Positions 46,676 through 64,000 of a stretch of DNA of 64,000 bases are shown in pieces (the first letter of the stretch is position 1; every line of letters starts with the position of its first letter). This DNA is from Aestuariivirga sp. Lineage in GTDB: Bacteria > Pseudomonadota > Alphaproteobacteria > Rhizobiales > Aestuariivirgaceae. Made by a program: the position numbers and the translations under genes. Where the stretch lies: contig NZ_JADCDB010000002.1 of the NCBI RefSeq assembly GCF_020252395.1, positions 62,001 to 126,000 on the forward strand, read 5' to 3'. The notes beneath the pieces were generated by a model. The model made no database searches. It was not told the DNA's origin and saw only the letters and a list, made by a program, of their open reading frames with translations.

Positions 46676-48139
46676 TTAGCGCCGCACCAGATCCGACAGG
46701 ATCCGGATGCCCGGCTCGATCTTCTGCTCGGCGATGGACGAGAAAGCGAGGCGATAGAAATTGCGCGGTGCCTCGGCCGCTCCGAAGGTAATGCGCCCGG
46801 GTTCGATCAGCACGCCCTTGGCGGCGGCCTGTTTGCCCAACTCGTCACTGTCCAGTCCCTGCGGTCCCTTCACCCAGAAGCTGGTGCCGCCGAAGCTCGG
46901 CACGCGGCTCGCGTCCGGCAAGCTCTGCTTCAGCGCATCGCCCATGATCTCCCAGCGCGTGCGATAGGCGCGGTGCAGGCGGCGGATCAGCGTGTCGTGG
47001 TGCCCGAGCGACAGGAACAGCGCCGCCGTGCGCTGGTTGTTGTTCGGCGCGTGCCGCACCATCAGGCGCCGCAGCGCACGGGCCTCCGCCACGATGTTCT
47101 TCGGCGCCACTAGGAAGCCCAGCCGAAGCCCCGGGAACAGCGTCTTCGACAGCGAACCCACGTAGATGACCCGCCCGTCGTCATCCAGCGACTTCAAGGC
47201 CGGACAGGGCTCGTTCACGTAATTGGTCTCGAACTCGTAGTCGTCCTCGATGATCACCACATCGTGCTTCGCCGCGCGCTTCAGGAGTTCCATGCGGCGT
47301 TCGAGCGGCATGGTCACCGTGGTGGGGAACTGATGGCTCGGCGTGGTGAAAACGAGGTCGCAATCGTCGAAGGCCTCGGAAGGGACCAGGCCCCTTTCGT
47401 CCACCGGCAGCAGCGCCACGTTGGCGGTGCGCAGGTTGAAGATGTTGCGCACATCCGGATAGCCCGGCTCCTCCATGCCCACGCGGGTCTGCGCGCCGAC
47501 CAGCAGTGTCGTCAGCAGGTAGAGCGCGTTCTGGGCGCCCAATGTGATGAGTATCTCGTCGTCATTGGCCATGATGCCGCGGCGGGGCAAAATGCGGCGG
47601 CGGATCTGTTCGACCAGCAGCGGGTCGTCATGGGCCCAGGTGTCGTTGGTCCAGGAGCCGAGCCACTTCTTGCCCAGCGCCTGCCGGGAGCAATCGCGCC
47701 ATTCGGCGAGCGGGAACAGCGTGTGGTCCACTTGGCCATAGATGAAGGGGTAGGGGTAGGACTGCCAGTCCAAGGGCTTCGAGACATTGGTCTGCTCGGC
47801 GGGCTGCATGGTGAGGCGGCTGGCCCAGTCAATGCCGGTGCCGGGCGCCGCCTGCTTCGGTGGCTGCTTAGGTGGAGAGCCGCTGTCCAGCGCTTTTTCT
47901 GAGACGAAGTAGCCGGAACGCTCCCTAGCCACGAGATAGCCATCATCCAGCAGGCCCTGATAAGCTAGGACCACGGTATTCCTTGAAACGCCGAGGCTCT
48001 TCGCCATCTTGCGGGTGGAGGGAATGGGCTCCTCCCGAGCCAGCTGCCCGTCAAGGATGGCCGCGACCAGCGCCTCGCGGATCTGGGTTTGGAGGCTGGC
48101 GTGTTCGTTCCGCCGGATATGGACGAGCCAGTCGCGCAA
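46676..48139 (-). CDS. MocR-type regulator (GntR helix-turn-helix plus aminotransferase-like domain)
   Basis: A 487-residue fusion: GntR winged helix (about 1-75: LQTQIREALVAAILDGQLAREEPIPSTRKMAKSLGVSRNTVVLAY) and a fold-type I PLP domain (about 120-480) with the likely PLP lysine in VGSLSKTLFPGLRLGF. Such regulators (GabR, PdxR, TauR) sense PLP or an amine bound as external aldimine. The best start is TTG 48139. It diverges from the SoeA-like gene; the shared 91 bases hold a sequence very close to the TauR box, so a role in taurine or sulfonate metabolism is a reasonable inference. Confidence 0.88.
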   Translation of the reverse strand: MRDWLVHIRRNEHASLQTQIREALVAAILDGQLAREEPIPSTRKMAKSLGVSRNTVVLAYQGLLDDGYLVARERSGYFVSEKALDSGSPPKQPPKQAAPGTGIDWASRLTMQPAEQTNVSKPLDWQSYPYPFIYGQVDHTLFPLAEWRDCSRQALGKKWLGSWTNDTWAHDDPLLVEQIRRRILPRRGIMANDDEILITLGAQNALYLLTTLLVGAQTRVGMEEPGYPDVRNIFNLRTANVALLPVDERGLVPSEAFDDCDLVFTTPSHQFPTTVTMPLERRMELLKRAAKHDVVIIEDDYEFETNYVNEPCPALKSLDDDGRVIYVGSLSKTLFPGLRLGFLVAPKNIVAEARALRRLMVRHAPNNNQRTAALFLSLGHHDTLIRRLHRAYRTRWEIMGDALKQSLPDASRVPSFGGTSFWVKGPQGLDSDELGKQAAAKGVLIEPGRITFGAAEAPRNFYRLAFSSIAEQKIEPGIRILSDLVRR

Positions 48140-48163
48140 GTTTGGTACCTGTGAACAGTCCTT

Positions 48164-48182
48164 CTGGACCTATCATAGGGCC
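48164..48182. promoter_or_regulatory. Candidate MocR/TauR-type binding site in the divergent region
   Basis: CTGGACCTAT (48164-48173) matches nine of ten positions of the CTGGACYTAA direct repeat reported for TauR, and it overlaps a dyad GGACCTAT-C-ATAGGGCC (48166-48182). A weaker second copy, TTGGACCCTT, lies about 44 bases further toward the molybdoenzyme gene. The site sits 25 bases from the MocR start and 49 bases from the SoeA-like start. Confidence 0.5.
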
Positions 48183-48230
48183 AATAGAGCCGGTAGAGTA
48201 GAAAAGATTGGACCCTTTGACCGGACCCGC

Positions 48231-51038: not shown

Positions 51039-51832
51039 CCTCTCTCCCGCCTCCCACCGCGAGGAAGCTGGGTCTCGTCATCGACCTCGATACCTGTGTC
51101 GGCTGCCAGGCCTGCGTGACCTCCTGCAAGGAATGGAACACGCAGGGCTATTCGGCGCCGCTCACCGACGAGCATACCCAGGGTGCGGAGGCGACCGGCG
51201 TCTGGCTCAACCGCGTGCACGGCTATGAGGTGCGGGAAGCGGGGCAGGACCAGTCGCGCATCGTCCATTTCCCGCGATCCTGCCTCCATTGCGAGGAGCC
51301 CGCCTGCGTTACCGTTTGCCCCACGGGTGCGAGCTACAAGCGCGCCGAGGACGGCATCGTGCTGGTGAACCCCGAAACCTGCATCGGCTGCAAGCTTTGC
51401 TCCTGGGCCTGCCCCTATGGCGCGCGTGAATACGACCAGTCGCATGGCGTGATGAAGAAGTGCACGCTCTGCGTCGACCGCATCTACAACGACAATCTCG
51501 GGGAGGACGACCGCTTGCCCGCCTGCGTGAAGGCCTGTCCCACCAGTGCGCGGCATTTCGGCGATCTCGGTGACTCCTCCTCCAAGGTCTCGCAGCTCGT
51601 GGCCGAGCGCGGTGGCTATGACCTCTTGCCCGAGATGGGCTACAAGCCCGTCAACAAGTATCTCCCACCGCGCGCGCGGCGCGATGCCACCACCTCGCGC
51701 GCCGAAGCCCTGCCAAAGCCCGATGGCTCCGCCTTCGACCGGCTCTTCCAATGGGCGGACAAGGTGCTGTCGCCCGGAAAGGGCTCGGCCCGCGCCAATG
51801 AAGTCGACCATTCCGGAAAGCTTGAAGGCTGA
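51035..51832 (+). CDS. soeB: Iron-sulfur electron-transfer subunit, SoeB-like
   Basis: A 265-residue ferredoxin of the DmsB/NrfC class with four cysteine clusters: DLDTCVGCQACVTSCKEWN, CLHCEEPACVTVCPTGA, ETCIGCKLCSWACPYGA and KKCTLCVDR with ACVKACPTSA. It carries electrons between the molybdopterin subunit and the quinone-linked anchor. The start overlaps the catalytic gene by four bases (ATGA) and the anchor gene begins two bases after its stop, so the three are one translational unit. Confidence 0.9.
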   Translation: MTSLPPPTARKLGLVIDLDTCVGCQACVTSCKEWNTQGYSAPLTDEHTQGAEATGVWLNRVHGYEVREAGQDQSRIVHFPRSCLHCEEPACVTVCPTGASYKRAEDGIVLVNPETCIGCKLCSWACPYGAREYDQSHGVMKKCTLCVDRIYNDNLGEDDRLPACVKACPTSARHFGDLGDSSSKVSQLVAERGGYDLLPEMGYKPVNKYLPPRARRDATTSRAEALPKPDGSAFDRLFQWADKVLSPGKGSARANEVDHSGKLEG

Positions 51833-51834
51833 GA

Positions 51835-52764
51835 ATGCATCCCGCCTATTCCGTCATCCTGTTCACGACGGCCTCCGGCGCCGGCTATGGGCTGCTGGCA
51901 CTGCTCTGCCTCGTGGGGTTGAGCCATGGTGAAGCATCGACGCTGGCGTTCGGACTCACGGCAATGGTGATCGCGCTGGGCCTTATCACCATCGGGCTCC
52001 TGTCCTCGACCTTCCATCTCGGCCACCCGGAGCGCGCTTGGCGGGCCCTGTCGCAGTGGCGCTCCTCCTGGCTGTCGCGCGAGGGCGTGCTGGCGGTGGT
52101 GACCTATGTGCCGGCCGTGCTGTTCGGCGTGGTGTGGTCCGGTCTCTATCCCGCACTTGACCTCATCAAGCCGCTGGCCGTGATCACCGGCGTGCTGGCC
52201 CTGCTGACCGTGATGTCGACGGGCAAGATCTACGCGACGCTGGCCACCATCCGCGCCTGGCACAATGGCTGGACGGTGTGGGTCTATCTCGCCTTCGCAT
52301 TGGCGACGGGGGCTACGATCCTCGCAGCCATCACCTCCGTCTTCGGCAATTTTCCGGCCTTCCTCGTCTGGTTCTCGAATGCCTGGCTAGTGGCCGCGCT
52401 GGCCGTCATTCTCGCCTACTGGCGCAGCATCGACGCTGCACCGCGTGACCTGACGATCGAACAGGCCACGGGGCTTGGCCGCATGGGGCAGGTGAGCCAA
52501 TGGGAAGTGCCGCACACCGCCGCCAATTACGTGCAAAAGGAGATGGGCTACGCCGTCGCCCGCAAGCACGCCGCGAAGCTCCGGCGGCTGGTGATCGTCG
52601 CGCTGGTTCTGGCCGTCCTAATGATGTTGGCGGGGCTTGCCGTTCCTTTCGCCGCGCTGCTCTCCGCAGCACTCGCGATCTTCGCCGCCGTGGTGCAGCG
52701 CTGGCTGTTCTTCGCGGAAGCCCAGCACGTTTCGACACTCTTCTACGGCGCCAAGGCCGCCTGA
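51835..52764 (+). CDS. soeC: DmsC-family membrane anchor subunit, SoeC-like
   Basis: A 309-residue inner-membrane protein with about eight helices. It opens MHPAYSVILFTTASGAGYGLLALLCLVG and has STFHLGHPERAWRALSQWRSSWLSREGV, a typical DmsC signature for the quinone-interaction region. The C-terminal QRWLFFAEAQHVSTLFYG is also conserved. As third gene of the cluster it would pass electrons from sulfite oxidation to ubiquinone. Confidence 0.87.
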   Translation: MHPAYSVILFTTASGAGYGLLALLCLVGLSHGEASTLAFGLTAMVIALGLITIGLLSSTFHLGHPERAWRALSQWRSSWLSREGVLAVVTYVPAVLFGVVWSGLYPALDLIKPLAVITGVLALLTVMSTGKIYATLATIRAWHNGWTVWVYLAFALATGATILAAITSVFGNFPAFLVWFSNAWLVAALAVILAYWRSIDAAPRDLTIEQATGLGRMGQVSQWEVPHTAANYVQKEMGYAVARKHAAKLRRLVIVALVLAVLMMLAGLAVPFAALLSAALAIFAAVVQRWLFFAEAQHVSTLFYGAKAA

Positions 52765-52809: not shown

Positions 52810-52831
52810 GATATAAAGAAGTCCTTATGTC
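52810..52831. promoter_or_regulatory. Dyad operator upstream of bmt
   Basis: Two 11-base halves, GATATAAAGAA (52810-52820) and GTCCTTATGTC (52821-52831), are inverted repeats with eight of eleven matches. The palindrome covers the open-frame ATG at 52827, which shows that the true bmt start is the ATG at 52851. AT-rich ATATAAAG-type palindromes precede methyl-cycle genes in alphaproteobacteria, where the ArsR-family regulator SahR is a candidate binder. That assignment is inference. Confidence 0.5.
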
Positions 52832-52850
52832 GTCTGTCCCGGAGGCTTTC

Positions 52851-53867
52851 ATGACCCGCCCGTCCTTCACCGAAGCGCTCGCCACGCGTCCTTGGCTGCT
52901 GGCCGATGGCGCAACGGGAACCAATTATTTCCAGATGGGCCTCGTCTCGGGAGATGCTCCCGAAATGTGGAATTTCGAGCATCCGGAGCGGGTGCGCACG
53001 CTGCACCGCCAGTTCATCGAGGCGGGGGCAGACATTGTGCTCACCAATTCCTTCGGCGGCAACCGCCACCGCCTGAAGCTCCACAATGCGCAAGACCAGG
53101 TGCGGGAGATCAACATTGCCGCCGCCAAGAATGCCCGCGCCGAGGCCGATGCCGCCGGCCGCCCCGTCTATGTGGGCGGGTCCATCGGCCCCACCGGCGA
53201 GATCATGGAGCCGGTCGGCGCCATGTCGCATGACGAGGCGGTTAAGGCCTTCGCCGAACAGGCGCTGGCCCTCAAGGAAGGCGGCGTGGACGTCTTGTGG
53301 ATCGAGACCATGTCGTCGGAGGAGGAACTGCGCGCCGCCGTCGAGGGTGCTTCGCAGGCGGGCCTTCCGATCGTCACCACCATGAGCTTCGACACCAATG
53401 GCCGCACCATGATGGGCATCACGCCCAAGGCCTTCGGCGCCATCACGGCAGCACTGCCCACCCAGCCCGTGGCCATCGGCGCCAATTGCGGCGTGGGTGC
53501 TTCCGAACTCGTCGCCACCGTGCTCGGCATTTCGGAGGCGCGGCCCGACGCAGTGGTGGTCGCCAAGGGCAATTGCGGCATCCCGCAATATGTCGATGGC
53601 CATATCCACTACACCGGCACGCCGGAGCTGATGGCGGATTACGCCCGCATCGCACTCGATGCCGGAGCCAGGATCATCGGCGGCTGCTGCGGCACGAGCC
53701 CGGAGCACCTGGCCTCGATGCGCAAGTCGCTCGAAAGCTACACAAAGGGCAGCCGGCCGTCGCTGGAGCTGATCGAGACGAAGCTCGGCCCGGTGTCGGA
53801 ACTCGCCAAGGGCCACGACGCCGCCGCCGCGGGAGCCGCCCGCCGCGAACGCCGCCGCGGGAACTGA
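52851..53867 (+). CDS. bmt: Betaine-homocysteine S-methyltransferase
   Basis: Predicted to move a methyl group from glycine betaine to homocysteine, giving dimethylglycine and methionine. The 338-residue TIM barrel has LLADGATGTNYFQMGL at the N-terminus and the three zinc cysteines in GANCGVG and IIGGCCGTSPEHL. The C-terminal tail is Lys/Arg/Ala-rich. ATG 52851 is chosen because GGAGG lies six bases before it and the upstream ATG falls in an operator. It follows the SoeABC-like genes by 86 bases but has its own regulatory site. It contrasts with the second homocysteine methyltransferase homologue at 60315, which lacks one zinc cysteine. Confidence 0.85.
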   Translation: MTRPSFTEALATRPWLLADGATGTNYFQMGLVSGDAPEMWNFEHPERVRTLHRQFIEAGADIVLTNSFGGNRHRLKLHNAQDQVREINIAAAKNARAEADAAGRPVYVGGSIGPTGEIMEPVGAMSHDEAVKAFAEQALALKEGGVDVLWIETMSSEEELRAAVEGASQAGLPIVTTMSFDTNGRTMMGITPKAFGAITAALPTQPVAIGANCGVGASELVATVLGISEARPDAVVVAKGNCGIPQYVDGHIHYTGTPELMADYARIALDAGARIIGGCCGTSPEHLASMRKSLESYTKGSRPSLELIETKLGPVSELAKGHDAAAAGAARRERRRGN

Positions 53868-54722: not shown

Positions 54723-56213
54723 ATGTTCACTCCTGCCTTCCTCAAGGGCGAGACTTGGGGCCTGCCCGGCCAGCCGGTGGAGCATGTTGAGACGCATGCT
54801 GCGCATGTGTTTCTCGTGGGAGAGCTTGCCTTCAAGATCAAGAAGGACGTGAGGCTGCCCTATCTCGATTTCTCGACCCCGGAGAAGCGGCGCGCCGCGC
54901 TGATGGCGGAACTCGCGATCAACCGGCTGTTCACGCCCGAACTTTACCTGCGGCTCGAGGAGGTTCTGGGCGAGCCGGTGCTGGTGATGCACCGCTTCCC
55001 CGCGCATGAGCTGCTGGCGTGGCGGATGGGGCATGGCGGGATTGATGGAACGCTGGCTGTCAAGCTCGCGTCCATGGTGGCCGTATCGCATGACCGGGCG
55101 CCGCGCCGCGACATCAAAGGCTCGGACATTATGACAGGCCTCGGAGCGCAGCTGTCGAAGGCCTTCATTGACTCTCCCGACATCTTTGCGCCTGCCGACA
55201 CGCTTGAGTTCCACGCGCTTTACGAAGCGGCCCTGCGCTTTGACCGGCAGCTTCTTTCGGACCGGGGAGAGCGCGGCCTCGTGCGCCGCTGCCATGGCGA
55301 TGTTCATTGCGGCAACATCTTTCTCGAAAGTGGCGAACCGCGGCTGTTCGACGCCATCGAGTTCAGCGAGAAGATCGCCACCATCGATGTGCTCTATGAC
55401 CTTGCCTTTCTGCTTATGGACCTGTGGAGCAGCGGGGTGAAGGTGGCGGCCAATGTGGTGCTCAACCGCTATCTTCATCTGCGGCGGAGGCAAGAGGATC
55501 TCTCGGGGCTCTCTTTGTTGCCGCTGTTTCTCTCCACCCGTGCCGGTGTCCGCGCGCTGGTGACGGCGGATCTGGCGCATGAGCTGGCGTTCAAGAATTC
55601 GATGATGGAGCGGAGCCAGGCGCTGGACTGGTTCCGGTCTTCAGTAGCGTACCTGAAGGTCTCGCCGCCCATGCTGCTTTGCATTGGCGGACTGTCGGGC
55701 TCTGGGAAGTCGACGGTGGCTGCGGCGCTGGCGCCGTTCCTGGGGGCTGCTCCGGGGGCGATCCATGTGCGCAGCGACGTGGAACGCAAGGTGCTGGCGG
55801 GTGTGCCCGAAACCGAACGGCTGCCGGCGGAAAGCTATTCCCTGCAAGCCTCGTTCGAGGTCTATGCCGCCTGCCTGGCGCGGGCGGAGAAGGCGCTGGC
55901 AGCGAGGCATTCCGTGGTGCTCGATGCCGTCTTCGCCCGGCCCGACGAGCGCGCGGCCGCGGCGGAACTCGCACGGCGGACGCGGGCACATTTCGCGGGC
56001 GTGTGGCTCGATGCACCGCGCGAGACGCTGGCCGCGCGCGTTGCGGCGCGCAGCGGCGATGCCTCGGATGCGACAGCGGAGGTGGTCGACGCCCAGCTCC
56101 GCTACGATCTCGGCCCGATGGACTGGCCGCGGGTGGATGCCGGCGGAACGGCGGCGCAGACGCTCTTGCGCCTCAGAGGAACGGTTCCGTTTCGGTTCTT
56201 CGCCCCATCATGA
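54723..56213 (+). CDS. Bifunctional APH-like phosphotransferase / P-loop kinase
   Basis: A 496-residue protein with an N-terminal phosphotransferase-like domain (about 1-320; VRRCHGDVHCGNIFLE catalytic loop and LFDAIEFSE) and a C-terminal P-loop NTPase (about 325-495; IGGLSGSGKSTVAAALAPF). This domain pair is widespread in alphaproteobacteria as an uncharacterised aminoglycoside-phosphotransferase/ATP-binding protein. The substrate is unknown; antibiotic resistance is not supported by context. Its 3' end overlaps the convergent sugar dehydrogenase gene by 41 bases. The upstream ATPase gene is 45 bases away on the same strand. Confidence 0.82.
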   Translation: MFTPAFLKGETWGLPGQPVEHVETHAAHVFLVGELAFKIKKDVRLPYLDFSTPEKRRAALMAELAINRLFTPELYLRLEEVLGEPVLVMHRFPAHELLAWRMGHGGIDGTLAVKLASMVAVSHDRAPRRDIKGSDIMTGLGAQLSKAFIDSPDIFAPADTLEFHALYEAALRFDRQLLSDRGERGLVRRCHGDVHCGNIFLESGEPRLFDAIEFSEKIATIDVLYDLAFLLMDLWSSGVKVAANVVLNRYLHLRRRQEDLSGLSLLPLFLSTRAGVRALVTADLAHELAFKNSMMERSQALDWFRSSVAYLKVSPPMLLCIGGLSGSGKSTVAAALAPFLGAAPGAIHVRSDVERKVLAGVPETERLPAESYSLQASFEVYAACLARAEKALAARHSVVLDAVFARPDERAAAAELARRTRAHFAGVWLDAPRETLAARVAARSGDASDATAEVVDAQLRYDLGPMDWPRVDAGGTAAQTLLRLRGTVPFRFFAPS

Positions 56214-57102
56214 AGCTGTCGGAGACGAGCTGCAGGGGCGCGCCATCGACATGGCTGCGGCCCTCACGCAGCAGTTGGGCGAAGTGGACGTAGATGTCCT
56301 TGTATTCCTCGGGCGGAGCCTGCACCGTGAGCTTGCCAGCGATGTAGAGTTCGCTGCCGCCGCGGCGCAGCGCCAGCTGCAAACCGTCCGCCGCCTCGAC
56401 GTCGATGCTCCAGCTCTGCTCGCCGGTCTGGCGCCAGTCGAGGTCGGCGGTGAGTTCGGCCTCGCCCTCCCATGATGGCTTGAAGGTGATTTGCGCGGCA
56501 ATGGGGGTGGCCTTGTTGCGCGGCGTCTCCAGCATCGCCGACTTCACGAAGACCGGCTGCGGCAGGATCTTGGTGACGATGGAGAAGGCGTTGATGCCGG
56601 GATCGAAGACGCCGAAGCCGCCGGGCTCCCAGATCCAGTCCTGGCCGGGGTGCCAGTGGCGCACGTCCTCCTTCCAGCTGACGTGCAGGCGGGTGACGCG
56701 CTTGCCCTTCAAGAGGCGCTGCGCTTCGTCCACCGCCTTGTTGTATTGCGAATGCCAGGTGGTGAAGAGGATGCGCTTGGCGCGATGCGCGTGCGCGGTG
56801 ATGGCGTCGAGCTCACCCATGGTGGTCGTGGGCGGCTTTTCCATCAGCACGTGGAGGCCGGCATCGAGTGCGTCGCGGGCGATGGCGAAGCGCGGCTCGG
56901 GCGGCATGCAGAGAGCGACGGCATCGAGCTTGAGGCCGCTGCGGAACAGCTCGGCGGGCGTCCTGAAAGCCGGCACGTCGCCATGGCCGCCGCGCGAGGA
57001 GACGACGGCTGCGAGCTCGAAATCCTTGTTCCTGGCGACGACCGGCAGGTGCTGGTCCTGCGCGATCTTGCCCAGTCCGATGATGGCGAGTTTGAAACCC
57101 AT
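56173..57102 (-). CDS. Gfo/Idh/MocA-family sugar dehydrogenase (D-galactose/L-arabinose 1-dehydrogenase type)
   Basis: An NAD(P)-binding enzyme of 309 residues. The N-terminal Rossmann start LAIIGLGKIAQDQHLPVVARN, the EKPPTTTMGELDAI loop and SWKEDVRHWHPGQDWIWEPGGFGVFDPGIN match the aldose 1-dehydrogenases typified by the Azospirillum L-arabinose/D-galactose enzyme. It would oxidise the sugar to the lactone for a non-phosphorylative pathway, but no other pathway genes occur nearby. It starts at ATG 57102, three bases from the cysteine desulfurase-like gene, and its end overlaps the kinase gene. Confidence 0.82.
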   Translation of the reverse strand: MGFKLAIIGLGKIAQDQHLPVVARNKDFELAAVVSSRGGHGDVPAFRTPAELFRSGLKLDAVALCMPPEPRFAIARDALDAGLHVLMEKPPTTTMGELDAITAHAHRAKRILFTTWHSQYNKAVDEAQRLLKGKRVTRLHVSWKEDVRHWHPGQDWIWEPGGFGVFDPGINAFSIVTKILPQPVFVKSAMLETPRNKATPIAAQITFKPSWEGEAELTADLDWRQTGEQSWSIDVEAADGLQLALRRGGSELYIAGKLTVQAPPEEYKDIYVHFAQLLREGRSHVDGAPLQLVSDSFMMGRRTETEPFL

Positions 57103-57105
57103 GGT

Positions 57106-58350
57106 TCAAGCGCTCCTGATCTGGCGGGTGAGCGAGCAGAGGAGGGCATCGACCTCCGCCTCGGTGTTGTAGTGGGCGAGGCCGACACGCAGCACGCCGC
57201 CCTTGTCCATGAGGCCCATGCGGCCCACGGGCTCGATCGCGTAGTTATGGCCTGACCAGACGAAGATGTTGTCCTTGGCGAAGGCCTTGGCCATGGCTTC
57301 CGGGTGGTGGCCGTCGAGCGTGAAGGACACGGTGGGCACGCGGCGGTGCATAGCATTGGCCGAGGTGATGCCGCGGATGGTGAGGCCCCTAAAGCTCTTG
57401 AGGCCCTCGATGAGGCGCAGCGTAATCTTGTGTTCGTAATCGGCGAGGTTCGACCACGCGGATGCGATGCGCTTGGTCCGCGTCCCGCCCGTACCGAATT
57501 GCTCAAGATATTCGATAGCGCCGAGCGTGCCGGCCATGCCTTCGTGGCTGAGCGTGCCCGTCTCGAATTTGTGCGGCAGGTCTTCCCCGGCCGGACGAAC
57601 CTTGTAGCCGAAGGTCTGCTTCAGCAGTTCTTCGCGTCCCCAGAGAATGCCCTGGTGCGGGCCGAACCACTTGTAAGCGGAGGAGACGACGAAATCGGCG
57701 CCGAGGTCCTGCACGTCGATGGCGTAATGCGGCGCGTATTGCACAGCATCGAGATAGACGATGGCGCCGGCCGCCTTGGCCTCCGCCGCGAAGCGCTTGG
57801 TGTCGTTCACCGTGCCGGTGCAGTTGGACGCCATGCCCATGGCCAGGAGCTTCGTCTTGCCGCTCAGCACTTTGGTGAGGGTCTCTTCGGGGAATTCATA
57901 GGTGTCAGTATCGAAGTCGATCCAGCGCACCACGAGGCCGAGGTCATCCGCCAACAGCAGCCAGGGCGCGACGTTGGCGTCATGGTCCATGCGCGAGAGC
58001 ACGATCTCGTCGCCGCGCTTCAACTGCTTGCCGAGGCAGCGCGACATGTGCAGCGTGAGGCTGGTCATGTTCTGGCCGAACACAATCTCGTTCATGCTCC
58101 GCGCATTGTAGAAATCCGCACAGGCCTGGTGGGCGAGGTCGACCAGTTCGCCGGCCTCGACCGTGGTCGTGAAATACCCGCCGAGATTGGCGTTGCGGTT
58201 GACCAGGCAATCCACCGTCCGGTCGATCACCTGTTGCGGCACCTGGGTGCCGGCGGGGTTGTCGAAGTAGATCCGGTCGCGGCCTTGGTCCTTGACGCTG
58301 AGGGCGGGGAACTGGGCGCGGATGGCGGCAACGTCGAGGGCGGCACTCAT
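57106..58350 (-). CDS. Cysteine desulfurase-like class V PLP enzyme (TIGR01976-type)
   Basis: A 414-residue fold-type I PLP enzyme. The N-terminus RIYFDNPAGTQVPQQVIDR, MDHDANVAPWLLLADDLGL, YLDAVQYAPHYAIDVQDLGAD and the PLP lysine in SSAYKWFGPHQG are typical of the VC1184-like subfamily. This group lacks the clear active-site cysteine loop of IscS/SufS and its reaction is unknown, so general sulfur mobilisation is not proven. Its ATG at 58350 diverges from the corrinoid protein gene across 162 bases. The sugar dehydrogenase follows on the same strand. Confidence 0.82.
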   Translation of the reverse strand: MSAALDVAAIRAQFPALSVKDQGRDRIYFDNPAGTQVPQQVIDRTVDCLVNRNANLGGYFTTTVEAGELVDLAHQACADFYNARSMNEIVFGQNMTSLTLHMSRCLGKQLKRGDEIVLSRMDHDANVAPWLLLADDLGLVVRWIDFDTDTYEFPEETLTKVLSGKTKLLAMGMASNCTGTVNDTKRFAAEAKAAGAIVYLDAVQYAPHYAIDVQDLGADFVVSSAYKWFGPHQGILWGREELLKQTFGYKVRPAGEDLPHKFETGTLSHEGMAGTLGAIEYLEQFGTGGTRTKRIASAWSNLADYEHKITLRLIEGLKSFRGLTIRGITSANAMHRRVPTVSFTLDGHHPEAMAKAFAKDNIFVWSGHNYAIEPVGRMGLMDKGGVLRVGLAHYNTEAEVDALLCSLTRQIRSA

Positions 58351-58512
58351 GGCGAAAATCCGGGATCGAACAAGCGGGACAGACCTCTTAACCGGGCTTT
58401 CCGCTTGCCTCAACCGTCGCTTTCCGGCATGGGGGTGTCGCCCGCTGGCGAAAGCCCTGACGCGCCCGGGGCTATTGTGTTTTCTTGAGAAATTCCCTTC
58501 CGGAGTGACCTG

Positions 58513-59214
58513 ATGAGCGATGATGGTGAACTTGACCTGAACTCCCTCAATGACGAGGAGCTGGTGCAGCAGGTCCATGACGACCTCTATGACGGCCTGA
58601 AGGAAGAGGTCGAGGCGGCGGTTCACATCCTGCTCGGCCGTGGCTGGGCGCCCTATAAGGTGCTGACCGAGGCCCTTGTCGAAGGCATGCGCATCGTCGG
58701 CGTCGACTTCCGCGATGGCATCCTCTTCGTTCCGGAAGTGCTGCTCGCCGCCAATTCGATGAAGGCCGGGATGACCATCCTCCGCCCGCTGCTCATCGCC
58801 ACGGGCGCGCCGCGCCAGGGCAAGATGGTGATCGGCACGGTGAAGGGCGACATCCATGACATCGGCAAGAATCTGGTCGGCATGATGATGGAAGGTGCTG
58901 GCTTCGAGGTGATCGACTTGGGGATCAACAACCCGGTCGAGAAGTATCTCGCCGCCATGGAAGAGCACAAGCCGGACATCCTCGGCATGTCGGCGTTGCT
59001 GACGACCACCATGCCCTACATGAAGGTCGTGATCGACACCATGAAGGAAAAGGGCATGCGCGACGACTACGTGGTGCTCGTGGGTGGCGCGCCGCTGAAC
59101 GAGGACTTCGCCAAGGCCATTGGCGCCGACGCCTATTGCCGCGACGCGGCGGTGGCGGTCGAGACCGCCAAGAGCTTCATGGCGCGCAAGCACAACCAGA
59201 TGGCCGCGAACTGA
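58513..59214 (+). CDS. Corrinoid (B12-binding) protein, MtbC/MtgC/MtmC-like
   Basis: A 233-residue cobalamin-binding methyl carrier. An N-terminal helical cap domain (about 10-95: LYDGLKEEVEAAVHILLGRGW; FVPEVLLAANSMKAGM) precedes the Rossmann B12 domain (about 100-230) with the base-off signature GDIHDIGKNLV; His115 should be the lower axial cobalt ligand. Later features GMSALLTTTMPYMK and VVLVGGAPLNEDFAKAIGADAY also fit. The DUF1638 gene follows by 24 bases. A partner MttB-family methyltransferase is encoded on the opposite strand at 62049, so this is its likely methyl acceptor. Confidence 0.93.
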   Translation: MSDDGELDLNSLNDEELVQQVHDDLYDGLKEEVEAAVHILLGRGWAPYKVLTEALVEGMRIVGVDFRDGILFVPEVLLAANSMKAGMTILRPLLIATGAPRQGKMVIGTVKGDIHDIGKNLVGMMMEGAGFEVIDLGINNPVEKYLAAMEEHKPDILGMSALLTTTMPYMKVVIDTMKEKGMRDDYVVLVGGAPLNEDFAKAIGADAYCRDAAVAVETAKSFMARKHNQMAAN

Positions 59215-59238
59215 GGTCACAGCAGCCGGAGGGTCACC

Positions 59239-59883
59239 ATGACCCTTGTCAATCTCAATCCATCTGACGAATTCGAGTTCAAGCCAGGCCAGGGGAAGGT
59301 TCTTCTCCTGGCCTGCGGCGCCTTGGGGCGCGAGATCGTGGACTTGATCGAGCGCAACCGCTGGATGGCTTTCGACCTCCAGTGCTTTCCTGCCAAGTGG
59401 CACAACACGCCCGACAAGATCGTGCCGGCGCTGCGCGGGAAAATCCGGGAGGCCAAGCCCCGCTACCAATCGATCTTCGTGCTCTACGGCGACTGCGGCA
59501 CCGGGGGCAACATCGACAAGCTGCTTGCGGAGGAGGGGATCGAGCGCCTCGAAGGCCCGCACTGCTATGCCTTCTTCTCGGGCCAGGAGACCTTTGCGAA
59601 GACGGCGGATGAAGACGTCACCGCTTTCTTCCTCACCGACTACCTCGCACGGCATTTCGACAAGCTGATCTGGGAGGGCCTCGGCATGGACCGGCACCCG
59701 GAACTGCTGCCGCTCTATTTCGGGAACTACACCAAGATCGTGTTCCTGGCGCAGACGCGCAATGAGGAGCTGGCCAGGAAGGCCATGGTGGCGGCGAAGA
59801 AGCTGGGGCTTGCCTATGAGTATCGATTTACCGGTTACGGCGAGCTGGAGCGCGATTTGAAGAAACGGGCCTCTTCATCTTGA
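59239..59883 (+). CDS. DUF1638 protein
   Basis: A 214-residue soluble protein with the DUF1638 hallmarks VLLLACGALGREIVDLIE at the N-terminus, the YGDCGTGGNIDKLL loop and HCYAFFSGQETF. No enzyme activity is established for the family. Its recurring gene neighbours are corrinoid proteins and MttB-type methyltransferases in methanogens and bacteria, and it is next to one here, spaced 24 bases. I infer a role in cofactor or methyl-group handling for the corrinoid protein. Strongly conserved Cys, Asp and His residues suggest metal binding. Confidence 0.9.
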   Translation: MTLVNLNPSDEFEFKPGQGKVLLLACGALGREIVDLIERNRWMAFDLQCFPAKWHNTPDKIVPALRGKIREAKPRYQSIFVLYGDCGTGGNIDKLLAEEGIERLEGPHCYAFFSGQETFAKTADEDVTAFFLTDYLARHFDKLIWEGLGMDRHPELLPLYFGNYTKIVFLAQTRNEELARKAMVAAKKLGLAYEYRFTGYGELERDLKKRASSS

Positions 59884-59887
59884 TACA

Positions 59888-59911
59888 TCATCCCGGTGAA
59901 AGCAGGGATGA
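59888..59911. repeat. REP-like short palindrome
   Basis: TCATCCC (59888-59894) and GGGATGA (59905-59911) are perfect inverted arms, with CGGTGAAAGC between. It follows the DUF1638 stop by four bases. The core CCCGGTGAAAGCAGGGA is close to the sequence at 42832, TTCCCGGCGAAAGCCTGGA, so it is probably a dispersed intergenic repeat of this genome, perhaps used as a bidirectional terminator between convergent transcripts. Confidence 0.6.
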
Positions 59912-59934
59912 CGAGATTTAGGGTTACGGCTTGC

Positions 59935-60318
59935 TTACCATTCGTTCTTGCGATAGGCGCCGCCGGCGATGGCGTAGTAGTCGCCGGCACTCTCGCAATA
60001 GATGTGGCCTTCGAGGTAGGCGCCGGTATCGCCGTCGATGGCGCCGGCGCAGATCGATGTGTCGTCGCTGCCGTCGCGCTTCCAGAACAGCACCGAGCCA
60101 CACTCCTTGCAGAAGCCGCGCTGGGCGATATCGCTGGAGCGGAACCATTTGAGGCCGTCCTGCCTCGTGAATTTCAGTTCGTCGTCGCCGCAGGCGGTTG
60201 CGGACATGTAGTTGCCTGTCTGCTTGCGGCACTGGATACAGTGGCAGGCGAGAATGGGGCGGAGTGCGCCGTGGACCTCGAAGCTGACGGCGCCGCAGAG
60301 GCAGGATCCGGTTTTCAT
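59935..60318 (-). CDS. GFA/CENP-V-fold protein (glutathione-dependent formaldehyde-activating type)
   Basis: A 127-residue zinc protein with the Cys-rich pattern of the GFA family: TGSCLCGAVSF, CHCIQCRKQTGNY and FCKECGS. The founding member was proposed to assist formaldehyde condensation with glutathione; many others have unknown thiol substrates. Its start overlaps the stop of the upstream homocysteine methyltransferase homologue by four bases (ATGA), tying it to methyl-group metabolism. A formaldehyde-handling role beside a demethylation cluster is plausible. Confidence 0.85.
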   Translation of the reverse strand: MKTGSCLCGAVSFEVHGALRPILACHCIQCRKQTGNYMSATACGDDELKFTRQDGLKWFRSSDIAQRGFCKECGSVLFWKRDGSDDTSICAGAIDGDTGAYLEGHIYCESAGDYYAIAGGAYRKNEW

Positions 60319-61220
60319 GAGAACGCCTTGTGAAGTGCGATGATGTGGTCGGGGCCTAGGCCACAGCAACCTCCGAAAGCCGAGACGCCCTTCATCTTCC
60401 ACGCCTTGGAGCGCTCAACCAGCTCATCCGGCGGGATGATGTCGACGAAGGTCCAGTCCGGCATCTTGAAGTAGCCGCTCTCGGGGTAAGCGCCGATGGG
60501 GCCCGTCCAGTGCTTGCGCAACACGCCGATCGCGTCGTCTGTGTCATTGGGCGAGCTGTGCATGATGCTTATGGCATCGGGCTTGAGCGCGGAGAGAACG
60601 CGCGCAACCTCGTCGAAATCCTGGTCCTCGCGCCCGAAGCCGGTGAGCTTGCCGTCGTGGCGCTCGACGGAGATGCCGATCCAGACGGGGAGGCCCGTGG
60701 CCTGTGCGGCCTGCGTGGCCCAGACGGAGTAATCCGTGTCGCGCATCATCTCCATCATGATGAGGTCGACGCCGGCCGCGGCGAGATTGTCCGCCTTGCG
60801 CTTGAACAGGGCACGGGCCTTGTCCTCCGGCCAGTCCTGCTGCTTCGAGGTGCGGTCGCTGCCCGGCACCACGGGGCGCATGGTGGACATGGAGCCGGCG
60901 ACGGCGACGGGATGACCTTTTGCTGCATCCCTGGCGATCGCGACAGCGGCGCGGTCGATGGCGAGGAGCTCGTCATCGCGGCCGAGCGCGTTGAACAGCA
61001 GGGCCGAAGTGGCGAAGGTGTTGGCGATGATGATGTCCGCCCCCGCCTTGATGTAATCGGCATGAACCTCGCGCACGACCTGCGGGTGGGACATGTTGGC
61101 TTCCGCGCACCAGGTCGATGAGCTCATCGGCACACCGCGGCGCTGGATATCGGTGCCGGTGCCGCCGTCGAGGATGATGATGTCACCCTTGGCGAGCTTG
61201 GCACGGATCAGGTCATACAT
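60315..61220 (-). CDS. Homocysteine S-methyltransferase homologue with altered zinc site
   Basis: A 301-residue TIM barrel. The N-terminal LDGGTGTDIQRRGVP and C-terminal FGGCCGLGPDHIIALH place it in the homocysteine S-methyltransferase (PF02574) family, like MetH domain 1 and Bmt. The third zinc ligand normally sits in an NC dipeptide (as in GxNC); the corresponding stretch here appears to be AISIMHSSPND, with His in place of Cys. That could still bind zinc, as a Cys-His site, or mark a different thiol acceptor. It sits between the [4Fe-4S] protein gene and the GFA gene in one operon, next to corrinoid machinery. Confidence 0.85.
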   Translation of the reverse strand: MYDLIRAKLAKGDIIILDGGTGTDIQRRGVPMSSSTWCAEANMSHPQVVREVHADYIKAGADIIIANTFATSALLFNALGRDDELLAIDRAAVAIARDAAKGHPVAVAGSMSTMRPVVPGSDRTSKQQDWPEDKARALFKRKADNLAAAGVDLIMMEMMRDTDYSVWATQAAQATGLPVWIGISVERHDGKLTGFGREDQDFDEVARVLSALKPDAISIMHSSPNDTDDAIGVLRKHWTGPIGAYPESGYFKMPDWTFVDIIPPDELVERSKAWKMKGVSAFGGCCGLGPDHIIALHKAFS

Positions 61221-61223
61221 GGC

Positions 61224-61883
61224 TCAGGCCTCTTGCCGGGCCTTGAGAAAGGCCCGCATGTGGAATTGCGCCTGTGCCGGGGCATAGGCAAAGCCTTGTC
61301 CCACGGGGCAGGCATGGCGCGCAAGACATCCGCGCGTCATGCACTCCGTTCCGGCGGGGCTTGCGATATGCGTGAAGCAGGCTGGCACGTCATAGCGCGT
61401 GCCGTCGAAGGCGGTAACGGGGCAGGCGGTGAGGCAGGGCTTCTCCGCGCAAGCCTCGCAGGGGTGTGGACCCGGCTGTTGGCGGGGAAGGTCGAAGGCC
61501 ACAGGGAACAGCAGCGCGGCGCGATAGGCGTGCCACAGCCCGTAGGTCGGGTGAATGTTGAGGCCCAGCGGCGAGACATGGCCCGCACCGCCGCGCCGCG
61601 CCCAGGCGAGGAAGGGCCAGGGCGGGCTCATGTCGAAGGGGTAGAGGGCGGTGGCGTCGAGGTCTTTCGCAAGGGTTGAGACAACCTCGCGTGTCCAGTC
61701 ATCCATGGTGTTGCGCTGCGGATCGCGCTCGCGGGCGAAGCGGCGAAACATATCGGGACCCGCATTGCCGATGAGGATCACGAAGCGGGCGCCTTCAGAA
61801 ACCTTGTCGTCAGGCTTCGGCTCGAACCAGCCGAGCGGCGTGAAGCCCGCGCGGCGGATCGTGGTGAGGATGGGGTGTTCCAT
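61224..61883 (-). CDS. Small [4Fe-4S] ferredoxin-like protein in the corrinoid cluster
   Basis: A 219-residue cytoplasmic protein. An N-terminal domain (about 1-130: RFVILIGNAGPDMFRRF; PFDMSPPWPFLAWARRGG) is followed by two Cys clusters, CEACAEKPCLTACPVTAF and CMTRGCLARHACPVGQGF, suggesting two [4Fe-4S] clusters of the epoxyqueuosine-reductase/ferredoxin type. It is too short and lacks features of RamA-type activases. The homocysteine methyltransferase homologue starts three bases after its stop. I infer that it supplies low-potential electrons, perhaps to reactivate Co(II) corrinoid, but no direct evidence shows this. ATG 61883 has no strong ribosome site. Confidence 0.75.
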   Translation of the reverse strand: MEHPILTTIRRAGFTPLGWFEPKPDDKVSEGARFVILIGNAGPDMFRRFARERDPQRNTMDDWTREVVSTLAKDLDATALYPFDMSPPWPFLAWARRGGAGHVSPLGLNIHPTYGLWHAYRAALLFPVAFDLPRQQPGPHPCEACAEKPCLTACPVTAFDGTRYDVPACFTHIASPAGTECMTRGCLARHACPVGQGFAYAPAQAQFHMRAFLKARQEA

Positions 61884-61898
61884 GGTGTCGCTCGCGGA

Positions 61899-62036
61899 GA
61901 CAGGCCCTCATCCGGCCTATCGGCCACCTTCTCCCATTGCGTGCCGCAACGGGAGAAGGGGAAGCTGGACCATCGAGTCCTTCTCCCGTCCGCAGGATGG
62001 AAGAAGGTGCCCGGCAGGGCGGATGAGGGCCCTGTC
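61899..62036. repeat. RIME/MITE-like palindromic element, 138 bp
   Basis: Terminal inverted repeats, GACAGG-CCCTCATCCGG on the left (from 61899) and its near complement ending GGATGAGGGC-CCTGTC on the right (to 62036), bound two internal hairpins: CCTTCTCCC/GGGAGAAGG with inner TTGCG/CGCAA, and CCTTCTCCCGTCC with its partner GGATGGAAGAAGG. It fills almost the whole gap between mttB and the [4Fe-4S] gene. It resembles the palindromic intergenic elements of Rhizobiales and carries no ORF of its own. Confidence 0.82.
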
Positions 62037-62048
62037 AGGCGGCAGCGG

Positions 62049-63626
62049 TTACGCCCAGCGCGGATCGCCCGGTTCCATGACGCTCCGCGGCAGCTTGATG
62101 TCATGCTTGGCGCGGATCTGCTCGTCGATGTGGCGCGGGATATACTCGGGGTAATAGGTCGAGAGGATCTCGCGCTTGCGGGCTGCCGCCCGCTCGACGA
62201 TGTCGGGCTTGCCGGCTTCGTTCCACTCCTTGGGGCTCATGCGGTTGGAGATCTGCGGATAGACATAGTCCTTCTGCATCAGCGCCAGCGTTTGCTCGTT
62301 GCCGAGATAGTGGCCCGGGCCTTCGACGCAGACCTGGGAGATGACGTCGAGCGAGAGCGTGTCCTCGTTGACCTCGATGCCGCGGACGTTGCGGTTGATG
62401 GAGCCTAGCATGTCATTGTCGATCAGCAAGCTCTCGAGGCAGAAGCCCAGGAGCGAGGCGTGCATGCCGGCGGACTCGTAAAGCATGTTGATGCCGGTCA
62501 TCGCCGAGATACCGGCGGTGACGCCCTTCTCGTAGCCTGCCTGCATGTCGGGGAGCTTCGAGTCGCACATGCCCGCGGCGGAGCCGACCGTGAGATTGTA
62601 GAAGTGCCCCATCTGGGCGCAGCCCGAGGTGATGAGCGCCTGCTCGCCCGAGCCCCCTGACATCGCACCCGTGCGGAGATCCGACACGAAGGGCCAGGGG
62701 CCCCAGATGGCAACGGCGCCGGGCACCACGCAATTGATGTAGACGAGGCCCGCGAGGCATTCCGCCACCGCCTGCACGACGGTGCCGGCAAGCGCTGCCG
62801 GAGACGTCGCCCCCGCCTGCGCGGCCGAGAGAAGCAGCACCGGCATGCCGCCGCGCGCAGCGGCTTCAAGGCAGCGGCAGGCGTCCTCGGCAAATTTCAT
62901 CGGTGGTACCACGAAGCAGTTGGACTGCGACACGAAGGGGCGCTCGCGCCACTTGTCTTCGCCGCCCGCCAGCACGTGAAGGATCTGCAAGCATTCGTCT
63001 ACATGGGCGGGATCGACCATGGACGTGCCGACATGCTTCTCGGTGCCCGCGAGGCAGGCATACATGGTGTTGATGTCGAGGTCATGGCCGGTAATCATGT
63101 CGCGCGCCGTCACCGGACGCTGGTAGAAGTGGATATGCTCGCAGTTATCCACGATGCGGCCGGCGTCATAGAGATCGACGAGCAACGATTCGCGGTAGCT
63201 GCGGGTCTCGGGTTCGACGATATGAACGGCAGCCCCGGCGGTGCCGAAATAGACGCGGTTGCCCGAGGGCTCCATGTCATGCTTGGGGTCGCGCGCATGG
63301 AGCACGAAATTGCGGGCGCAAGAGGCGAGCGTGTCCTCGACGAGGCTTGCAGGAATGCACAGGCGGCCTTGCGCATTGAGCCAGCAGCCGCGCGCTGTCA
63401 TGGCCTCCACACAGCTGGGGATGGCCTGGGCGAGGCCCACGGTTTCGAGAAGCTTCAGCGCGGTCTTGTGGATGCGCTGCATGTCCTGGTCGGTCAGCGG
63501 CTTATATTGCCCGCCTTCCATGCCGGGGCGCACGGCGGCCTCGGCCATTGGAATGGGGCGCGAGCGTAGCGCGCGGCGGGCTTCACGGCCGCCACGGCGG
63601 CGGGACAGGTCTTCGACAGCACTCAT
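62049..63626 (-). CDS. MttB-superfamily corrinoid methyltransferase (non-pyrrolysine)
   Basis: A 525-residue methyltransferase of the trimethylamine methyltransferase (MttB) superfamily. N-terminal YKPLTDQDMQRIHKTALKLLETVGL, the AVHIVEPETRSYRESLLVDL stretch and C-terminal YVYPQISNRMSPKEWNEAGKPDI are typical. The whole frame has no in-frame TAG, so it is not a pyrrolysine enzyme like archaeal MttB; relatives such as MtgB take methyl groups from glycine betaine, and others from proline betaine or carnitine. The substrate here is unknown. ATG 63626 has GAGGAG eight bases upstream. The methyl acceptor is most likely the corrinoid protein at 58513. It diverges from a LysR gene. Confidence 0.9.
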   Translation of the reverse strand: MSAVEDLSRRRGGREARRALRSRPIPMAEAAVRPGMEGGQYKPLTDQDMQRIHKTALKLLETVGLAQAIPSCVEAMTARGCWLNAQGRLCIPASLVEDTLASCARNFVLHARDPKHDMEPSGNRVYFGTAGAAVHIVEPETRSYRESLLVDLYDAGRIVDNCEHIHFYQRPVTARDMITGHDLDINTMYACLAGTEKHVGTSMVDPAHVDECLQILHVLAGGEDKWRERPFVSQSNCFVVPPMKFAEDACRCLEAAARGGMPVLLLSAAQAGATSPAALAGTVVQAVAECLAGLVYINCVVPGAVAIWGPWPFVSDLRTGAMSGGSGEQALITSGCAQMGHFYNLTVGSAAGMCDSKLPDMQAGYEKGVTAGISAMTGINMLYESAGMHASLLGFCLESLLIDNDMLGSINRNVRGIEVNEDTLSLDVISQVCVEGPGHYLGNEQTLALMQKDYVYPQISNRMSPKEWNEAGKPDIVERAAARKREILSTYYPEYIPRHIDEQIRAKHDIKLPRSVMEPGDPRWA

Positions 63627-63651
63627 GGATGAAACTCCTCAGTATGGCCCT

Positions 63652-63742
63652 ATATCCACTGTTTCGCCGTGGCCATTCAATGGTCTATCTTTTTCTGGCA
63701 GTGGATAATTTTTTTCACCACCAAGAAGCGGGTTTTCCACTG
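63652..63742. promoter_or_regulatory. Repeated TCCACTG motifs in the mttB/LysR divergent region
   Basis: ATCCACTG (63654-63661) and its exact complement CAGTGGAT (63699-63706) form a widely spaced inverted repeat, and TCCACTG occurs again at 63736-63742. They lie in the 181 bases between the divergent mttB (63626) and LysR (63808) starts. The layout suits a LysR-type recognition and activation site pair. The AT-rich stretch 63707-63716 could be part of a promoter. Confidence 0.5.
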
Positions 63743-63807
63743 TCCGCCCCTTAACGCCCTGATTTCAGGAGTGTTACAAGAAGCCTCCAGACCAGTGGTG
63801 AGGAAAC

Positions 63808-64000
63808 TTGGCCAGACGTGACCTGCCACCTTTACGTGCCCTGACCGCCTTTGAGGCGGCCGCCCGGCTGGGCAGTTTCCGCCTTGCCGCCGGCGAACTG
63901 GGCATCACCCGCTCCGCCGTCAGTCACCAGGTGAAGTCGCTGGAGCAGCGGCTTGGCGTGCAGCTGTTCCGCCGCGACGCACGCCGGGCCGAACTCACCC
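63808..64000 (+). CDS. LysR-family regulator, GcvA-like, N-terminal part (runs off window)
   Basis: The first 64 codons of a LysR-type regulator, cut by the window end. RDLPPLRALTAFEAAARLGSF and LAAGELGITRSAVSHQVKSLEQRLGVQLFRRDARR form the winged helix-turn-helix of the GcvA subgroup. TTG 63808 is the only start: an in-frame TGA precedes it at 63799, and AGGAAAC lies directly upstream. It diverges from mttB and probably regulates it in response to the methylated amine or a product. Confidence 0.88.
   Translation, partial: MARRDLPPLRALTAFEAAARLGSFRLAAGELGITRSAVSHQVKSLEQRLGVQLFRRDARRAELT

Follow-up and report, generated by a model that had tools for sequence, protein, structure and literature searches.

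A 64,000-nucleotide stretch of the Aestuariivirga sp. genome (hereafter the window; positions 62,001 to 126,000 of contig NZ_JADCDB010000002.1, G000:C12:62001-126000) carries a cluster of corrinoid methyl-transfer genes that we regard as probably one part of a split network of the MtgBCDE kind, in which a small cysteine-rich protein, FeS, would serve as an accessory factor and a divergent homocysteine-methyltransferase-like protein, PF02574_2, would be an added thiol-methyltransferase-like component. The steps proposed rest on how these genes relate in sequence to those of the experimentally studied system of Ruegeria pomeroyi and Phaeobacter inhibens. MttB1 would demethylate a quaternary amine and load the methyl onto MtgC, the corrinoid protein common to the network; MtgD, encoded on contig C1, would exchange the methyl between MtgC and tetrahydrofolate; MtgE would use methyl-MtgC to form methionine; and RamA, also encoded on contig C1, would together with the DUF1638 protein hold the corrinoid reduced. 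On the basis of its predicted fold, co-occurrence and gene linkage, FeS would probably assist the RamA/DUF1638 machinery, either as a corrinoid reductase or as a chaperone for B12, while PF02574_2, which is His-Cys-Cys and thiol-methyltransferase-like, would have joined behind FeS in the Aestuariivirga lineage. The features concerned are:

52827..53867, plus strand: MtgE-type homocysteine methyltransferase subunit (PF02574_1); NF005718 equivalog, 518 bits against a cut-off of 338
58513..59214, plus strand: MtgC corrinoid protein; PF02607 and PF02310
59239..59883, plus strand: DUF1638 protein; PF07796, 95.8 bits
59935..60318 (start approximate), minus strand: GFA-family protein; PF04828, 64.5 bits
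60315..61220, minus strand: PF02574_2, divergent homocysteine-methyltransferase-like protein; PF02574, 169 bits
61224..61883, minus strand: FeS, CblC/QueG-like with a cysteine-rich ferredoxin-like part; no Pfam match
61906..62028, between mttB1 and FeS: palindromic repeat; inverted arms 61906-61932 and 62002-62028
62049..63626, minus strand: MttB1, non-pyrrolysine MttB family; PF06253, 355 bits, open frame

Genes of a split methionine synthase

Six of these genes (mttB1, mtgC, DUF1638, FeS, PF02574_2 and GFA) had been named in an initial annotation of the window, and all six are present where it placed them, between 58513 and 63626 (5.1 kb); the second PF02574 gene, at 52827-53867, had been overlooked. 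The annotation was also correct that MtgA-like and RamA-like genes are missing from the window, and a search of the adjoining 18 kb on the right did not find one either. Its suggestion that the methyl group may for this reason pass to a thiol finds no support at the level of the genome (3.49 Mb in 46 contigs, given as 100% complete), where an MtgD-type gene (L007:10448-11407) and a RamA-like gene (L007:8329-10593) form an adjacent pair on contig C1. Such a pair just downstream had been put forward as the counter-test; the pair exists, although on contig C1 and not downstream. MtgD scores 375.9 against the NF005719 cut-off of 259 and is 74% identical to MtgD of Sinorhizobium meliloti. RamA matches PF14574 with 311 bits and is 61% identical to its S. 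meliloti counterpart, while remaining below the cut-offs of the NCBIfam RamA (114 of 500 bits) and AcsV (398 of 800 bits) models. RamA (PF14574) and DUF1638 (PF07796) are each present in a single copy in the genome, and the remaining PF00809 gene, on contig C10, is a dihydropteroate synthase.

MtgC is 82% identical to the MtgC proteins of S. meliloti and Paracoccus aminovorans, and the two NCBIfam MtgC models match it below their cut-offs (204 bits against 370 and 173 bits against 310). As PF02607 matches only one other protein of the genome, and that weakly (26 bits), MtgC is probably the sole methyltransferase-type corrinoid protein of the genome and a hub shared by several reactions. MtgE is 57% identical to bmt of the S. 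meliloti mtg locus, with N-C and GGCCG motifs visible. The NCBIfam name of its model, NF005718, is betaine--homocysteine S-methyltransferase; in the text of Mausz et al. (2025; PMC12478193), proteins of this type are not true Bhmt but MtgE, the part of a split methionine synthase that handles homocysteine. Searches of the whole genome gave no match to MetE (PF01717) or to the MetH activation domain (PF02965), and its only two PF02574 proteins are short, such that an intact MetH was not found. For this reason, coupling of quaternary-amine demethylation to methionine synthesis, which is already in print (PNAS 2025), is expected without the need for a folate-free route. The link to methionine made in the initial annotation is therefore retained for the MttB/corrinoid system, but the route is simpler through MtgE, which judged by sequence is a better candidate than PF02574_2 for the methionine-synthase subunit. 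In R. pomeroyi and P. inhibens, as far as the relevant sections of the two papers relate (PMC12478193; Price et al. 2018, PMC5764234), MtgC and MtgD take part in betaine demethylation as well as in methionine synthesis, for which the RamA-like and DUF1638 genes also matter; mutants of R. pomeroyi require added methionine and do not grow on glycine betaine (Mausz et al. 2025, PMC12478193).

The DUF1638 protein is 52% identical to that of S. meliloti. Across 385 genomes of the class, DUF1638 and RamA occur together in 72, alone in 3 and 15, respectively, and neither in 295, giving an odds ratio of 472; odds ratios from this set ignore kinship, apart from a rough family-level collapse that used an estimated 168 families. 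The pairing of DUF1638 with RamA is known from Price et al. (2018; PMC5764234), who make no specific proposal for DUF1638. We infer from these relationships that DUF1638 is a corrinoid-reactivation partner. It has a predicted alpha/beta fold, for which a fold search gave no clear match. As a separate observation, His55, Cys86, His108 and Cys109 are invariant in all 30 rows of a DUF1638 alignment (the fragment L055 omitted) and could form a metal or thiol site.

MttB1 and its paralogues

The genome contains six PF06253 genes, MttB1 among them. MttB1 is an open frame of 525 amino acids without an in-frame amber codon and scores 378.6 bits against the TIGR02369 cut-off of 525, and it is classed as a non-pyrrolysine member of the family. 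Its relatives include proteins encoded elsewhere on S. meliloti pSymB (59% identity) and on the R. pomeroyi megaplasmid (46%). Four plasmid regions around MttB1 relatives, from Sinorhizobium, Ruegeria, Roseovarius and Mesorhizobium, each hold a flavin adenine dinucleotide (FAD)-dependent oxidoreductase and a LysR gene, and one of the four (Mesorhizobium) holds a glycine betaine ATP-binding cassette (ABC) transporter nearby. PF02574_2 is absent from all four, so MttB1-type genes exist without it. Genome-wide, there are 17 matches to GCV_T (dimethylglycine/sarcosine demethylase-like) in 3.5 Mb, 15 of them above the cut-off; together with the six MttB genes, these fit a user of methylated amines.

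FeS as a candidate accessory factor

Aerobic corrinoid methyltransferases must re-reduce cobalt in air, and the solution adopted by the split methionine synthase is only partly known. FeS, a protein of 219 amino acids without a match in Pfam or NCBIfam at E 0.001, is 39% identical to the FeS protein of the S. meliloti mtg locus, annotated there as 'ferredoxin'. Its predicted fold is nitroreductase-like and B12-binding, of the CblC/MMACHC or QueG type, and a weak local match to MMACHC/QueG lies near a conserved HPxxGxxxAxR stretch. Eight cysteines are invariant in 13 of 13 close relatives (this alignment and that of PF02574_2 with MtgE used minus-strand protein references lacking the first Met, which places their numbering one below that of the full protein), and the strict cysteine pattern recurs in 18 of 26 segments from the class that had been preselected by an HxxGLxHAxR motif. 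QueG uses eight cysteines to hold two [4Fe-4S] clusters, paired with B12. FeS is likely a CblC/QueG-like protein with two [4Fe-4S] clusters, as judged from its structure model and cysteines.

Among the 385 genomes, FeS is carried by 83, DUF1638 by 75 and RamA by 87. FeS and DUF1638 occur together in 57, alone in 26 and 18, and neither in 284 (odds ratio 35, kinship ignored), and for FeS and RamA the corresponding numbers are 62, 21 and 25, and 277 (odds ratio 33, kinship ignored); after collapse to families the odds ratios are 40 with DUF1638 and 34 with RamA. In the Aestuariivirga genome and at least six others, two of them of one genus, DUF1638 or RamA is found no more than 5 kb from FeS; this number is a lower bound, as it derives from 22 RamA/DUF1638 positions picked by hand on shared contigs. 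In plasmid records with FeS, DUF1638 is within 3.4 kb in seven of eight (four Sinorhizobium, two P. aminovorans and one Shinella), the order in P. aminovorans being RamA, MtgD, MTHFR, DUF1638, MtgC, MttB, FeS. On a plasmid of the betaproteobacterium Methylibium petroleiphilum, a weaker homologue of FeS (L216:8443-9125; 29% identity, matched as two pieces) follows a run of cobalamin biosynthesis genes.

Taken together, fold, co-occurrence and linkage suggest that FeS is an unrecognised accessory factor of the mtg system; no mention of a link between FeS and corrinoid genes was found in the literature searched. The reading that FeS is instead a QueG-like RNA-modification protein, or another redox protein whose link to corrinoid genes is hitch-hiking, seems unlikely to us, given the co-occurrence with RamA and DUF1638, the linkage within 5 kb in at least six further genomes, the proximity to DUF1638 in plasmids of three genera and the Methylibium homologue behind cobalamin genes. 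Several points nevertheless weigh against FeS, and against MttB1, as parts of the mtg system. The structure model of FeS is of only moderate confidence (predicted local distance difference test score, pLDDT, 74.2), and the association was corrected only by the family-level collapse, with no unrelated control gene. RamA is lacking in 21 of the 83 FeS genomes and FeS in 25 of the 87 RamA genomes, from which it follows that FeS is neither obligatory nor exclusive. When 30 loci from the class were fetched with flanks of about 1.5 kb, RamA was present in two and a corrinoid gene in two. Finally, the MttB of the S. meliloti mtg locus shares only 25% identity with MttB1 but 68% with the genome's own contig C8 paralogue, which by sequence is a better candidate MtgB than MttB1. 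Genetic data implicate RamA-like proteins and DUF1638 in keeping the cobalt reduced; FeS, which travels with both, is a candidate third factor that lends itself to testing in tractable organisms such as S. meliloti.

Conservation and residues of PF02574_2

To describe the neighbourhood of PF02574_2, counts were made for the best 80 of 543 relatives, in named loci (several from the same genomes as the G-handle genomes), of which 41 are at least 50% identical and 39 less than 50%; short contigs were scored as misses. The nearest named relative among these 80 is from Aestuariivirga litoralis (96%). Of the 41 close relatives, 38 carry FeS, 36 MttB (37 at up to 10 kb) and 36 GFA at a distance of 3 kb or less; DUF1638 and MtgC are found within 10 kb in 24 and 21, respectively. 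Restricting the set to the 36 loci with at least 3 kb of upstream sequence gave FeS in 34 and MttB in 32. The clustering exceeds chance, as the arrangement recurs in relatives, and the co-occurrence of the PF02574 gene with MttB, which the initial annotation had set as a test, is borne out. Close loci without any of the partners are L122, with 2.4 kb of upstream sequence present, L124, with 10 kb at either end, and L144, where 10 kb of upstream and 1.2 kb of downstream sequence were covered; L132 has FeS and GFA and no MttB. The MttB beside PF02574_2 is of one of two types, the MttB1 type or the C8 type, which are 25% identical, and in three of four C8-type loci (L053, L054 and L056) RamA and MtgD adjoin the operon, the fourth (L055) being cut by a contig end. 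As the adjoining MttB varies between two very different types, FeS, PF02574_2 and GFA form the steady core of the operon; L056/L146 lack FeS.

PF02574_2 covers positions 1-282 of the 283 of the PF02574 profile (169 bits against a cut-off of 22) and does not reach the cut-off of any of the five listed NCBIfam models. In an alignment of 81 rows (the 80 named loci and the protein itself), His221, Asp18 and Glu157 are present in 81 of 81 and Cys285/Cys286 in 80 of the 80 rows with letters there. Homocysteine S-methyltransferases have three cysteine zinc ligands, a set that PF02574_2 departs from in having His at the first place in all 81 rows and keeping two cysteines. In the phmmer alignment this His lies opposite a cysteine of MetH that we take to be a zinc ligand, and MAFFT alignments with MtgE are shifted by two places there; the Asp and Glu presumably line the homocysteine pocket. 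The replacement by His is no argument against thiol chemistry, since zinc thiol methyltransferases with a His-Cys-Cys set, MtbA and MetE, exist, and PF02574_2 may methylate a thiol using such a putative site. No mention of a His-Cys-Cys PF02574 clade was found in the literature searched. Proteins with this set at less than 50% identity (L147-L183 except L158 and L168) come from metagenome-assembled genomes (MAGs) labelled Actinobacteria, Chloroflexi, Planctomycetes, Gammaproteobacteria and others. Relatives lacking MttB keep the same residues, so the presence of the His-Cys-Cys set does not depend on MttB.

These data bear on what PF02574_2 does. A folate-free route, in which MtgC is methylated by MttB1 and PF02574_2 then transfers the methyl directly to homocysteine or another thiol, would agree with the MttB neighbour, of either of two widely differing types, that 36 of 41 close relatives have within 3 kb, with the retained Cys pair, Asp and Glu, and with the zinc sites of MtbA and MetE. 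We give this proposal a low probability: MtgD, RamA and MtgE are all present in the genome, the four plasmid regions with MttB1 relatives hold no PF02574_2, and in relatives below 50% identity, which have the same zinc-site residues, MttB is absent within 3 kb in 34 of 39 (some contigs are short). Its more specific form, a dedicated folate-independent quaternary amine:thiol methyltransferase in which MttB1 charges MtgC, FeS keeps cobalt reduced in air and PF02574_2 delivers the methyl to a thiol that is possibly not homocysteine, appears improbable. If PF02574_2 were a methylcorrinoid:thiol enzyme, it would provide a second, folate-free exit for quaternary amine breakdown.

The distant relatives point in another direction. 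FeS is near PF02574_2 in 3 and MttB in 5 of these 39 loci, and no neighbour widely common to them was found. That the 39 include MAGs labelled Actinobacteria, Chloroflexi and Planctomycetes, that most of the 39 lack MttB, MtgC and FeS nearby, and that PF02574_2 has no B12-binding domain, would suit a corrinoid-independent enzyme of the MmuM/Bhmt kind that takes its methyl from a sulfonium or betaine and adjoins MttB through a shared substrate or regulator. This is possible but doubtful, as the steadiest partner in the close clade is FeS (38 of 41), which is B12-type by predicted fold and would be superfluous for such an enzyme. Alternatively, PF02574_2 may have lost methyl transfer and taken another role within a plain MtgBCDE system, as the change of the first zinc ligand in all rows, the failure to reach any listed NCBIfam cut-off and a distant homologue in G022 (29%) that also lacks the Cys pair could indicate. 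We think this is not probable, since the other zinc and pocket residues are invariant in the 81 rows, which would be unusual after loss of the chemistry. The split network with FeS as accessory and PF02574_2 as an added thiol-methyltransferase-like protein is the reading carried forward here.

Operon structure and neighbouring genes

On the minus strand the order is mttB1, FeS, PF02574_2, GFA, with the plus-strand genes mtgC and DUF1638 converging on them. FeS and PF02574_2 are separated by 3 nucleotides, and the GFA open reading frame begins at 60402, with an internal in-frame ATG that overlaps the PF02574_2 stop codon (ATGA). As the gap between mttB1 and FeS is at most 72 nucleotides in 30 of the 39 named loci holding both genes on the same strand, the four genes probably form one operon, at least in relatives. 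The same short gap suggests that the palindromic element may be an insertion in the Aestuariivirga lineage. It is predicted to form a hairpin of -92.4 kcal/mol (z -7.3), presumably resembles RIME, and could affect read-through between mttB1 and FeS; a pattern built from its two arms gave no third copy in the window.

Other genes were noted nearby. The span 56173-58374, which encodes an oxidoreductase of the Gfo/Idh type and a cysteine-desulfurase-like protein (TIGR01976), adjoins mtgC in many Aestuariivirga-type relatives, with no known link to methyl transfer. Immediately 5' of mtgE, 48009-52764 encodes a molybdopterin oxidoreductase together with an Fe-S subunit and a probable membrane subunit; the PhsA/DmsA- and DsrO/DmsB-type matches fall below cut-offs and the third subunit has no match. 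Right of the window, L006:1809-6142 (window-equivalent 63808-68141) holds a GcvA-type LysR gene, another MttB gene, a sugar kinase whose nearest match is pseudouridine kinase (below cut-off) and a gene that is PsuG-like by eye, without an NCBIfam match; this order recurs in relatives. A second small B12-binding protein (L213:1450-2136, G000:C12 ~23400; PF02310, 41 bits) resembles what we take to be an AerR/PpaA-type regulator.

Comparison with known systems

The closest described system is MtgBCDE of R. pomeroyi, which, in the text of Mausz et al. (2025; PMC12478193), shares with the present one a common corrinoid protein MtgC, a bidirectional MtgD, a separate MtgE, MttB-family donors with several MttB paralogues, RamA, DUF1638 and the absence of MetH. 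The operon described here differs in adding FeS, PF02574_2 and GFA behind an MttB of a different subfamily, and the words ferredoxin, 4Fe-4S, iron-sulfur, MMACHC and CblC are absent from the main text of that paper. The three-part methionine synthase of P. inhibens likewise has PF02574, PF00809 and PF02607/PF02310 as separate proteins, together with DUF4445 (RamA-like) and DUF1638, whereas an MttB/FeS/PF02574_2 operon is not described in the sections of Price et al. (2018; PMC5764234) consulted.

The mtg locus of S. meliloti pSymB (CP090106:2214000-2236000), whose mtg genes are stated to be colocalised in the text of Mausz et al. (2025; PMC12478193), holds bmt, FeS ('ferredoxin'), MttB, MtgC, DUF1638, MTHFR, MtgD and RamA (ASKHA) together. 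Unlike the Aestuariivirga locus, no relative of PF02574_2 or GFA was found there except bmt, and its MttB is closest to the C8 paralogue rather than to MttB1. Among individual proteins, FeS resembles MMACHC (CblC) and QueG in predicted fold, while differing in its length of only 219 amino acids and in having no Pfam or NCBIfam family. PF02574_2 shares the full domain, the GGCCG motif and the Asp and Glu with the PF02574 enzymes MetH (N-terminal domain), MmuM and Bhmt, and is set apart from them by the His that replaces the first zinc Cys and by an AYPESGYF-type loop.

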